The notes beneath the pieces were generated by a model. It worked only from the letters and a program-made list of their open reading frames with translations, ran no database searches and was not told the DNA's origin. Position numbers and translations under genes: made by a program. Below are positions 11,273-24,371 of a DNA stretch of 32,201 nucleotides, one piece after another. How positions within the stretch are numbered: position 1 is the stretch's first letter; the number at the start of each line of letters is the position of its first letter. The DNA lies in NCBI GenBank assembly GCA_005877075.1, contig VBPX01000051.1:1-32201 (forward strand). Reading direction: 5' to 3'. This stretch comes from Nitrososphaerota archaeon (GTDB lineage Archaea > Thermoproteota > Nitrososphaeria > Nitrososphaerales > Nitrososphaeraceae).

Positions 11273-11818
11273 ATGGAATCATCAAGTGGGATTGTTATAA
11301 AAAGACCTCCTGGTATAATTGCAGGTCTGACTGCGGCTTGGGCGATTTTTGGATTATTCCTAGCTTTAGATCAGGAAATGGGACTAGAGCCAGGTGCGTT
11401 GTTTCAGATGGTTGGAATTGGGTTTGGAATAGATACCTCTTACGCAGTATATATTGGATTTCTCTTGTATATGATAACTGCCGTTATTATAGGAATTATT
11501 TACAGTGGTATATCAATGAGGATTAAAGTATTGCATATTAATTCAGTATTAAAGGGAGTAGGAACGGGCATTCTGGCAGGAATAATTGTGTGGGGAGTTC
11601 TATTCTTGCCAATAAATTATGTAATCATGCAACCAACCTTACAAAAAATTCTTGTAGAATCAAATCCATCAACTTCACTATATGCGATGACAAAAAAACT
11701 TATTGAGCTTTCAAATACCATCTTTTGGGGTTCATTATCATTACATATAATATTTGGTGGAGTAATGGGATTTTGTGCAAGACTTGCTATAGCTGAAACA
11801 AGTATAATACATGATTAA
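11273..11818 (+). CDS. Four-helix membrane protein, paralogue of the NDH-2 fusion's membrane domain
   Basis: 181 residues with about four or five hydrophobic helices. The block 'LYMITAVIIGIIYSG' ... 'GTGILAGIIVWGVLFLPINYVIMQPTLQKIL' aligns by eye with residues 71-133 of the NADH dehydrogenase fusion at 22368-24371 ('IHTITAISIGIVIGVF' ... 'LFAGSVILIVFFIPVYLLILQPEINRIL'). The final helix 'HIIFGGVMGFCARLA' matches 'HLVFGITVGVTSSTL' there. So this is a stand-alone version of that membrane domain, with the shared signature 'P-x-x-Y-x-(I/L)-x-QP-x-(L/I)-x-(K/R)-IL'. Function unknown; it could anchor or partner a redox enzyme. Confidence 0.78.
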   Translation: MESSSGIVIKRPPGIIAGLTAAWAIFGLFLALDQEMGLEPGALFQMVGIGFGIDTSYAVYIGFLLYMITAVIIGIIYSGISMRIKVLHINSVLKGVGTGILAGIIVWGVLFLPINYVIMQPTLQKILVESNPSTSLYAMTKKLIELSNTIFWGSLSLHIIFGGVMGFCARLAIAETSIIHD

Positions 11819-12515: not shown

Positions 12516-14252
12516 CTATTCCTGGAGTACTTTATGAATAAACGAAATCGCGATTGATCCTTCGCCGACCGCGGACGCAACACGCTTGACGCTGCCACCT
12601 CGCACGTCACCCACCGCGAAAATCCCCGGCAAACTGGTTTCGAACAGGTACGGCGGACGGGCAAGGGGCCAGCGAGCTGCCATCAGATTTTCTGGCGACA
12701 GGTCAAAACCAGTCTTAATGAAGCCTTGAGTGTCTAGCGCCACGCAGCCGTCGAGCCAATGGGTATTCGGAGTAGCGCCGGTCATGACGAACACGTGCCT
12801 GATCTTGTGCTCTTCAGTCTGACCCGATTGATTGTTTCGCCACCGAACGGACTCGAGGTGATCGCCTCCTTCAAGCGCCAAGATCTCAGTGTGTGGCCGG
12901 AATAGTATCTTAGGAGTCTCTTCGATTCGGCGAATTAGGTAGCGCGACATGCTCTCAACCAAACCCGCAGACCTGACAAGCATGTATACGCGCTTCGTCA
13001 TCTCAGCAAGAAACACGGCAGCCTGACCAGCTGCATTTCCTCCACCAACCACAATCACTTCTCCATCGCACAATTGTGCTTCCACAAATGTCGCACTGTA
13101 ATAGACACCCGCACCTTCAAAACGCGACAAGTTTTCCCATTCTGGCTTCCGATACTCCGCCCCGGTTGCGATAACAACAGTTCGTGCCGGAATTCGATTC
13201 CCATTCTGAACTTCGACGACGTACGGTTTGTTGTTGCAAACGAGTCGCGTGGCCTTGATGATGCGCATCACCGCACCGAACTTTTGTGCCTGATTGTACG
13301 CTCGAGCTGCGAGCTCTTGACCCGAGATACCTGTGGGAAATCCCAAGTAATTTTCGATTCTTGAGCTTGAACCTGCCTGTCCACCAGGCGAGCTCGTTTC
13401 CAGCACCAGTACGTCAAGCCCTTCTGAGGAGCCATACACTGCCGCAGCCAGCCCCGAGGGACCCCCGCCAATGATGACTAGATCGCGCACTTGGATTTGG
13501 TCAATAGATTCGTTGAAGCCGAGGCAGTCCGCAATTTGTTGGTTACCGGGGTTGCGTAACACAATTGTGCCTCGGCAGATCACCACGGGTATCTCGTTGG
13601 TGGTGATACGGAAATTATCTAATAAGCCCTGTATATCAGGATCTTGTTCGAGGTCTAAGAAGGTGTAGGGATGTCCATTGCGCATCAGGAACTCTTTGAT
13701 CCGAAGCGTACCAGATGAATGCGTTGACCCGATGAGCACTACGTCTCCCACGCCAGCCGCCACCAACTCAACCCTGCGTAGAATAAAAGCCCGCATAAGA
13801 ATCTGGCCAAGCTCAGAATCGCTCTGCACCAAAGCTAACATCTGTTGCCGATCAACTTCGATCACCTTACCCTGCTTAGTAACACGCACGCGAAAGATGG
13901 TCCGCCGGCCTGAAAGCGTGCCGACCTCACCAGTGAACTGACCAGATCGATACACGGTGACAAGGGTCTCAACGGCGCCAGGTCCCGATGGGCGCACAAC
14001 CTCTAGTTCGCCGGAGACAACCACAAAGAACGGTACGTTGATTTCTCCCTGCTCATAGAGCACTTCGCCACGCTGGATGGCATGCATTTTTCCGCGTGCT
14101 GTAATGCGGCCAATCTGCGCTGGTGTTAATTTTGGAAATATCTGCTCAACATGAGCTCTGGTTAGCGGAAGTCCCTTGCGTGTATCGTTCATAGGGAATT
14201 TTTCCGAACCATCAGCTTCAGAAATTTCCTTTTTATAAGAATTACCCGGCAT
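12516..14252 (-). CDS. cNMP-binding / thioredoxin-like / FAD-NAD(P) reductase fusion
   Basis: 578 residues in three parts. Residues about 36-150 are a cyclic-nucleotide-binding (CAP/Crp-type) domain ('RGEVLYEQGE', 'FFVVVSGELEV', 'GQFTGEVGTLSGRR'). Residues 171-245 are a thioredoxin/glutaredoxin-like fold with no CxxC. Residues 257-578 form a thioredoxin-reductase-like flavoprotein: FAD loop GGGPSG (262-267), 'ATGAEYRKP', NAD(P) loop GGGNAAGQ (403-410) and 'FAVGDVRGGSVKRVASAVGEGS' near the end. The CxxC redox pair of true thioredoxin reductases is absent: the site reads 'YYSATFVEAQLCDG'. Composition is far more GC-rich than the surroundings (38 of 60 bases G/C at 12601-12660 against 21 of 60 at 15001-15060), and the switch occurs almost at the gene borders, which indicates recent transfer, probably from bacteria. 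Met21 (14192) is an alternative start, in ATGA overlap with the upstream frame, and matches where homology and high GC begin. Confidence 0.93.
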   Translation of the reverse strand: MPGNSYKKEISEADGSEKFPMNDTRKGLPLTRAHVEQIFPKLTPAQIGRITARGKMHAIQRGEVLYEQGEINVPFFVVVSGELEVVRPSGPGAVETLVTVYRSGQFTGEVGTLSGRRTIFRVRVTKQGKVIEVDRQQMLALVQSDSELGQILMRAFILRRVELVAAGVGDVVLIGSTHSSGTLRIKEFLMRNGHPYTFLDLEQDPDIQGLLDNFRITTNEIPVVICRGTIVLRNPGNQQIADCLGFNESIDQIQVRDLVIIGGGPSGLAAAVYGSSEGLDVLVLETSSPGGQAGSSSRIENYLGFPTGISGQELAARAYNQAQKFGAVMRIIKATRLVCNNKPYVVEVQNGNRIPARTVVIATGAEYRKPEWENLSRFEGAGVYYSATFVEAQLCDGEVIVVGGGNAAGQAAVFLAEMTKRVYMLVRSAGLVESMSRYLIRRIEETPKILFRPHTEILALEGGDHLESVRWRNNQSGQTEEHKIRHVFVMTGATPNTHWLDGCVALDTQGFIKTGFDLSPENLMAARWPLARPPYLFETSLPGIFAVGDVRGGSVKRVASAVGEGSIAISFIHKVLQE

Positions 14253-22367: not shown

Positions 22368-24371
22368 TTAGGTAGTAAAGGAACGATCGGAAATATTAGG
22401 CTTGAAGCCAATTTCCTCTGCAGGGGTTTTAAGTCTGGTTACATCCCGCTTGAAGAATAAGTCTATAATCCAGTCCACTAAAACTCGCAATTTCTTTTCT
22501 ACTGTAGGAAGATTAACTAGATAGTATGAGCGCCAAAACCACCAAGCTGCAAATCCATGAACCTTATGTCCAAGTATTACGCCAACACCATTTCTCTTTC
22601 CTATCAACGTCATAACCCCCTTTGTCTTGTAATCAAATGTTTCTTTATGATTTTCTTGAGCCTTAATTTTAGAGATCAAATTGATTGCAGCAACCTTTCC
22701 CTGTCTTAATGCGTGTTGGGCGGTTGGGGGATAAGGTTTTCCTGTATTAGGATCTGTGACACAGGCACAGTCGCCTAGGGCCATAATACTATCAGTATAT
22801 CCAGCAACTTCAAGGTAATTGTTGGTCATTATTCTACCAGACTTGTCGTGTTCACAAGAAAGAGCGGATAGTAAGGTTTGAGGCTTTCCTCCTCCAGCCC
22901 ATATTATTGTTTGGGTTGTGATAATAGTTCCTTGATCTAGTTTAACATTGTCTGAGGTGACCTCCACCACACGTGTGTTTACAAGCACTGCGAGTCCATT
23001 TTTTCTTATTTCCCGTAAAGCAAAGTCTGCTAGATCCTCAGTTACTTCGGGAAGTATCCTTCCCCCCGAATTTATGAGTATTATTCTTGCATAGGATTTT
23101 TGTAGATTGTGGTAAAAATATTTTATTGAATCTAGTATGAAGTCATTCAATTCGCCGACAATTTCAATGCCAGAAAAACCTCCGCCAACTACCACGAAAG
23201 TCAACAGTCTTTTCCTAAGGTCAATATCTTCATGTTCAATGTCGGCCTGTTCTAACATATTTATCACATGATTGCGTAAGACTATGGCATCGCCAAGGTT
23301 CTTTAGAGTAAAGGCTTGTTTAGCAGCCTCACTCACACCAAAGAAGTTTGTTTCACTTCCTAATGCTAAGACAAGGTAATCGTATTTCAGCATATGACTA
23401 CGCCACTCGATAGGCTTTGTATGCTTTCCGATCCTATGGGTTATAACGACTTCCTTCTTCTCCAGATCAATTGACTCTATCTCTGTTTCATAAAATTTTG
23501 CTCTATTGCAAAAGGCTCTCAGCGGTGTTACTATATGTCTTGTCTCGATCATCCCTGATGATATTTCAGGAAGCATTGGTGTAAAGAGGAAAAAGTTGTC
23601 TCGACTTACCAGTGTTATGTCAATTCTAATATCGTTCTGAAATGTTTTTTGAAGCTGCCGTAAAACTTCTATTCCTGCGAATCCGCCTCCCAAAATTAAA
23701 ATGCGTGTTAATTGAATTGGTTTTTCTCCGTGAATAAGTTCTACATGTTTTTGGTATGAATCGATCCTAGAAAAAGAAATATCACATTTTGTACACCTAT
23801 ATCGGCTGCCAAATTTAATTGATAAAGTAGATGACGTTACTCCTACAGTGATACCGAAAACAAGATGCATAATAATATAACTTACAATCACCAGTGGGAA
23901 GCTATATTGAGATAATGTTGTACCGTATTCATCATAGGTGTATTCATCATAGGATTCTGGCATCGTGTTAGTTAGAATACGGTTGATCTCTGGCTGCAGA
24001 ATTAACAAGTAAACAGGTATGAAAAAAACAATTAGGATTACAGAACCGGCGAATAACCCATAAAGCAAGCCATTTGAAAGCTTACTTATATTCAGTATTC
24101 CAGTTTTATAGAGAAATACTCCGATAACAATGCCTATTGAAATAGCAGTTATTGTATGAATTGCTACTCCTGCAAAAGCTGCGTCAGAAGAGTAGACGCC
24201 TACGACATGTCCAAATGCTAACCATGTAACATAATAAGGCAAGCCCATTCCAACTTCAAAAGCAGTCGGAATAAGCATCGATACTGCTCCTAGCATTGCC
24301 CCTATGACAACAAAGAATACCTCGCGTTTAAGAGAAAAATCTACTCTTATTTCCGTAGTTTTCCTCTTCAT
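22368..24371 (-). CDS. NDH-2-type NADH dehydrogenase fused to a membrane domain and a C2H2 zinc finger
   Basis: 667 residues. Part 1 (about 17-185) holds four or five membrane helices; its 'FFIPVYLLILQPEINRIL' block is shared with the protein at 11273-11818. Part 2 is a canonical C2H2 finger with Cys193, Cys196, His209 and His214 (C-x2-C-x12-H-x4-H). Part 3 (about 221-667) is a type II NADH:quinone oxidoreductase: FAD loop GGGFAGIE (228-235), NADH loop GGGFSGIE (396-403), 'IMALGDCACV' around 529-538, 'PPTAQHALRQG' (quinone-site region) and an amphipathic C-terminal segment. NDH-2 oxidises NADH and reduces quinone without pumping ions; usual length is about 400-450, so the first 220 residues are an addition. 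Start ATG 24371. Single gene. Confidence 0.93.
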   Translation of the reverse strand: MKRKTTEIRVDFSLKREVFFVVIGAMLGAVSMLIPTAFEVGMGLPYYVTWLAFGHVVGVYSSDAAFAGVAIHTITAISIGIVIGVFLYKTGILNISKLSNGLLYGLFAGSVILIVFFIPVYLLILQPEINRILTNTMPESYDEYTYDEYGTTLSQYSFPLVIVSYIIMHLVFGITVGVTSSTLSIKFGSRYRCTKCDISFSRIDSYQKHVELIHGEKPIQLTRILILGGGFAGIEVLRQLQKTFQNDIRIDITLVSRDNFFLFTPMLPEISSGMIETRHIVTPLRAFCNRAKFYETEIESIDLEKKEVVITHRIGKHTKPIEWRSHMLKYDYLVLALGSETNFFGVSEAAKQAFTLKNLGDAIVLRNHVINMLEQADIEHEDIDLRKRLLTFVVVGGGFSGIEIVGELNDFILDSIKYFYHNLQKSYARIILINSGGRILPEVTEDLADFALREIRKNGLAVLVNTRVVEVTSDNVKLDQGTIITTQTIIWAGGGKPQTLLSALSCEHDKSGRIMTNNYLEVAGYTDSIMALGDCACVTDPNTGKPYPPTAQHALRQGKVAAINLISKIKAQENHKETFDYKTKGVMTLIGKRNGVGVILGHKVHGFAAWWFWRSYYLVNLPTVEKKLRVLVDWIIDLFFKRDVTRLKTPAEEIGFKPNISDRSFTT

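Follow-up and report, generated by a model that had tools for sequence, protein, structure and literature searches.

Gene structure

The locus described here raises the question of whether an NADH dehydrogenase of the NDH-2 type, a membrane domain and a C2H2 zinc finger truly form a single protein and, if so, what a zinc finger does in a respiratory flavoenzyme. The window that we analysed comprises positions 1 to 32,201 of contig VBPX01000051.1 of a Nitrososphaerota archaeon. The original prediction, which was made from the letters alone, had read such a three-part gene in it, and Pfam matches, motifs and hydrophobicity all agree with this reading, including a real C2H2 finger (Table 1). The proposed gene coordinates and ligand numbers (193, 196, 209 and 214) proved exact. 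The "several membrane helices" announced at the N-terminus are indeed present and are better read as four, and the strand has been corrected to minus.

Table 1. Features of the fused gene and of its membrane-domain paralogue in the window
Feature	Position	Strand	Basis
Whole gene: membrane domain, C2H2 finger and NDH-2, 667 aa	22368..24371	-	ATG start, Pfam
N-terminal membrane domain, aa 1-185, four predicted helices, DUF6789-like	23817..24371	-	Hydrophobic peaks, model
C2H2 zinc finger, aa 191-214, ligands C193, C196, H209, H214	23730..23801	-	
Linker from last His to FAD domain, length near-constant among homologues	23706..23729	-	
NDH-2 catalytic part, aa 223-643	22443..23705	-	Pfam, solved homologues
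FAD-binding GGGFAG, aa 228-233	23673..23690	-	Motif
NADH-binding GxGxxGxE, aa 396-403, with catalytic-type Glu403	23163..23186	-	Motif, PMC5299459
Quinone-site motif AQxAxQ (AQHALRQ), aa 551-557	22701..22721	-	Motif, PMC5299459
NDH2_C membrane-contact domain (PF22366), aa 584-643	22443..22622	-	Pfam, over cut-off
Membrane-domain paralogue, standalone, 181 aa, without finger or NDH-2	11273..11818	+	27-28% identity

Distribution and genomic context

Comparing the N-terminal 222 residues with 250 genomes of the order, a search of archaeal genomes that had been suggested as a check, recovered the membrane-finger-NDH-2 fusion in 29 of them, with strong matches lying within long reading frames. The fusion spans two families, the window's own (f1) and a second one (f9), and includes single-contig genomes; three closed genomes (G238, G210 and G099) carry it in a single frame. 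Because one unbroken frame recurs across many independent genomes, closed ones included, the open reading frame is not an assembly artefact, and its recurrence rules out an origin by assembly error or by the fusion of neighbouring genes. One close relative was found in a named collection, the metagenome-assembled genome Nitrososphaerales archaeon TH703 (89% identity). Outside the order, neither the fusion nor a finger-NDH-2 protein was seen among 398 genomes sampled across the phylum. The fusion is thus genuine, conserved and, within the genomes sampled, restricted to one lineage. The fused protein does not count as a core enzyme, since most of the sampled genomes of the same genus lack a close NDH-2 of the fused kind in a search with the catalytic part.

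No upstream or downstream neighbour common to most fused loci was found, so a conserved operon gave no clue. Locally, the fused gene of four f9 loci (L064, L065, L066 and L068) is preceded on the same strand, at a distance of 1-8 bp, by a class I/II aminotransferase gene. At L066, an ArsR-type regulator, DoxX and a gene joining a Rieske [2Fe-2S] domain to a glutamate synthase FMN domain (L066:9036-10622) come next.

Catalytic and membrane domains

In the whole protein, Pfam detects Pyr_redox_2 at residues 223-558 (E = 2.5e-40) and NDH2_C at residues 584-643 (E = 1.5e-8), both above the cut-off. Two dinucleotide-binding GxGxxG motifs, GGGFAG (228-233) and GGGFSG (396-401), are kept in the fused members, the catalytic Glu of GxGxxGxE is present as Glu403, and AQxAxQ occurs at 551-557, its final Gln being replaced by Glu in some fused members. 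The definitions of the last two motifs come from an NDH-2 survey (n = 1762) from which proteins with fused domains were excluded (PMC5299459). Among the fused proteins, the FAD, NADH, Glu and quinone motifs are all intact and point to NADH and quinone as the probable substrates. The nearest solved structures are bacterial and yeast NDH-2. Some f1 copies (L051, L055, L056 and related ones) are longer, about 780-800 aa, their NDH-2 part being interrupted by several inserts of 10-40 residues, among them ones that follow window residues 316, 320, 382, 471 and 573. Elsewhere in the window (12516-14252, minus strand), a 578-aa protein joins a cyclic-nucleotide-binding domain to a thioredoxin-reductase-like Pyr_redox_2 module.

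The membrane domain displays four hydrophobic peaks (aa 18-36, 69-87, 106-124 and 160-178), matched by four long helices in a model of the N-terminal region that is of moderate confidence (mean pLDDT 61.5); these helices and their positive ends suggest an N-in/C-in topology. The standalone paralogue in the window aligns with this domain at E = 9e-10 and 6.9e-9. The DUF6789 profile (PF20587) has no Pfam match in the window protein itself and is matched weakly by standalone relatives only (E 7.7e-5 and 0.002, and up to 0.03), all below the curated cut-off, the top score being 23.2 bits against 27.1. It is through these below-cut-off matches that the membrane part appears to resemble DUF6789. A Foldseek comparison of the N-terminal model with the PDB gave a top match at E = 0.43, too weak to be informative.

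Zinc finger

The finger, C193-x2-C196-x3-F200-x8-H209-x4-H214, has the full canonical spacing together with the hydrophobic core position, and the zf-C2H2 profile (PF00096) matches it at residues 191-214 with E = 0.0012 (19.6 bits, below the cut-off of 25.2). In 20,000 shuffles of the protein, the pattern C-x2-C-x12-H-x3-5-H arose twice, and never with an aromatic residue four positions after the second Cys, which rules out a chance pattern. A profile of the N-terminal region retrieved solved fingers from PDB sequences at E = 3e-14, the listed matches aligning only to the finger end of the profile. Zinc binding is predicted. The finger lies about a dozen residues past the last helix and ten residues ahead of the FAD-binding strand; it is unmodelled in the N-terminal model, and the full-length model, built on an alignment of two sequences only, has a mean pLDDT of 31.6, confidence at the finger being too low in both models to show a beta-beta-alpha fold.

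In an alignment of 32 sequences, broken and truncated ones included, C193, F200 and H209 are conserved in all copies and C196 and H214 in 30 each. All four ligands occur together in 29 copies. Of the remaining three, two belong to broken genes, namely the frameshifted L048 (Cys196 to His, His214 to Gln) and L049 (His214 to Thr); the third, L047, has an intact frame with Cys196 changed to His. One additional residue separates the two cysteines in L060. Because architecture and ligands are both conserved, neither of the two circumstances that the original prediction had named as speaking against it, a lack of the ligands in most homologues or a merger created by assembly, applies here. Constraint follows the same pattern: when the window gene is compared with four close homologues, dN/dS is 0-0.07 in the finger, 0.12-0.15 in NDH-2 and 0.14-0.29 in the membrane part, the finger value being rough given the short segment but in the same direction in all comparisons. 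Spacing is kept as well: 10 residues separate the last His from the FAD strand in most of the fused proteins (range 9-17), and the distance is similar in finger-NDH-2 proteins that have no membrane domain.

These data bear on the possibility of a zinc or redox switch, in which the catalytic unit would shift, and NADH oxidation be tuned, once zinc is lost or the CxxC pair is oxidised or nitrosylated. Within the finger, a segment under strong constraint that adjoins the FAD-binding strand at near-fixed spacing, conservation is highest at the four ligands, and the ArsR-type regulator, DoxX and Rieske genes near some related loci would suit such a role; however, ligand conservation is equal in structural fingers, and in the intact L047 zinc could stay with the His that replaces Cys196 although the dithiol is gone. 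We consider a switch unlikely. More doubtful is the extended proposal that the finger gates access to the quinone pool by sensing zinc, NO or peroxide, and that ammonia-oxidising archaea in this manner adjust NADH oxidation to their redox state.

The connection with DNA or RNA that the original prediction had entertained was not borne out. In that reading the finger would bind nucleic acid and keep the membrane enzyme attached to chromosome or ribosomes, and some features go in this direction: the finger profile matches eukaryotic DNA-binding fingers, the f1 finger has basic flanks and an R-x-D helix start, and the C2H2-like AFV1p06 of an archaeal virus, the one characterised archaeal C2H2 comparison found, binds DNA (PMC3541406). 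Against this, only a single finger is present, its spacing to the FAD domain is near-fixed, its helix-face residues vary from family to family and are not conserved in f9, and the net charge of the finger region ranges from -3 to +8 in the fused proteins and from -2 to +3 in the N-terminal segments of membrane-less ones. Since neither the helix-face residues nor the charge are conserved, a nucleic-acid role is disfavoured, and we hold it to be very improbable.

Domain combinations and origin

The modules occur in several combinations: plain NDH-2, finger-NDH-2, membrane-finger-NDH-2, membrane-finger without NDH-2, and the standalone membrane domain, which is common. Ten proteins, all from f9, are of the finger-NDH-2 type without membrane domain (L109, L115, L116, L139, L144, L145, L146, L148, L150 and L151). 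Conversely, L063:4538-5200 and L071:6474-7187 encode a membrane domain followed by one or two C2H2 fingers and no NDH-2. In genome G153 (L070:4496-6402), the fused gene is split by a stop, with a membrane ORF on one side and a finger-NDH-2 ORF on the other, by true fission or sequencing error; this split gene may illustrate how the membrane part came to be lost.

A maximum-likelihood tree was built from 101 catalytic domains, after dropping L081, a gene truncated at the end of its contig that had been classed as plain. The fused members make up one f1 group and one f9 group, with the finger-NDH-2 proteins nested inside the latter. A constraint uniting the f1 fused group with the f9 group raised the likelihood by 7.5 units and was not rejected (AU p = 0.678), and two independent origins of the fusion are not needed. 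Since uniting the finger lineages is not rejected, a single origin of membrane-finger-NDH-2, with some f9 lineages later losing first the membrane part and then the finger, is a fair though not proven reading.

This modularity weighs on two further explanations. That the finger is a passive, functionless remnant of gene fusion seems scarcely credible to us: its loss has left some NDH-2 of this tree intact, but its dN/dS is the lowest in the protein, its ligands are largely retained and mostly lost in broken genes, and it persists after loss of the membrane domain. Alternatively, it may be a protein-docking module that brings a dehydrogenase or a regulator to the membrane, alike in membrane-bound NDH-2, membrane-less NDH-2 and membrane-finger proteins. 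Its recurrence with varied partners (NDH-2 alone, the membrane domain alone, or both) and the aminotransferase gene just upstream in four f9 genomes would fit, but a neighbour conserved across most members is missing and the finger surface residues vary among families; docking in this general sense is conceivable and, on balance, rather improbable.

Proposed function

The explanation that we favour, with about even confidence, builds on the architecture, motifs, conservation, constraint, modularity and spacing observed above, and takes the protein to be a membrane-integral NADH:quinone oxidoreductase whose finger serves as a zinc-stabilised joint or docking element. The fused gene would encode a non-proton-pumping enzyme of an ammonia-oxidising archaeon, whose NDH-2 module would lie on the cytoplasmic side, oxidise NADH via FAD and hand the electrons to the quinone pool. 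The N-terminal four-helix, DUF6789-like bundle would additionally anchor the enzyme in the membrane. The finger, as a structural joint or docking element stabilised by zinc, would pack on the FAD domain and set the position of the catalytic unit, and it probably exposes a surface that a partner could use. A structural or docking role is favoured because of the near-fixed spacing to the FAD domain and the strong constraint, and we infer it to be the most likely function of the finger. Nevertheless, the finger is not simply a joint between the membrane and NDH-2 parts, since it is kept when either of them is missing.

The route by which NADH feeds the quinone pool of ammonia-oxidising archaea is poorly understood. 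With a completeness of 94.9%, the host genome contains a match to archaeal AmoA and the 49-kDa subunit of complex I (NuoD). NuoF, the 51-kDa NADH-binding subunit, is absent from it, and the fused gene itself is its single NDH2_C match, missing sequence being possible in both cases. With a complex I core devoid of NuoF and a single NDH2_C match, the fused protein could therefore be the NADH entry point, and it may constitute the NADH:quinone route of this genome.

Comparison with known systems

The original prediction knew of no characterised example of this fusion, and none was found in the searchable literature; in the literature searched, an NDH-2 or NADH dehydrogenase with a zinc finger is not described in these archaea, which is weak evidence given that few subscription journals were covered. 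Some ammonia-oxidising archaea appear to possess an NADH-oxidising respiratory enzyme that has acquired both a membrane anchor of its own and a conserved zinc finger; this arrangement was seen in no other group searched. The plain, finger-only and membrane-plus-finger enzymes found within one order provide a natural comparison set for the effect of the finger on a respiratory flavoenzyme.

Unlike usual C2H2 domains (PF00096), the finger is single and lies within a membrane flavoenzyme, the window copy scoring below the Pfam cut-off. DUF6789, a membrane family, weakly resembles the standalone relatives; unlike it, the domain in the window is fused to a finger and to NDH-2. The catalytic part is homologous over residues 223-644 to the NDH-2 of Caldalkalibacillus thermarum (4NWZ, E = 4.5e-43) and to yeast Ndi1 (4G6G, E = 8e-40). 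Finally, the fused protein shares with known NDH-2 the FAD, NADH, Glu, AQxAxQ and C-terminal membrane-contact features, whereas those enzymes are monotopic and have neither the N-terminal membrane bundle nor the zinc finger, both of which are present here.
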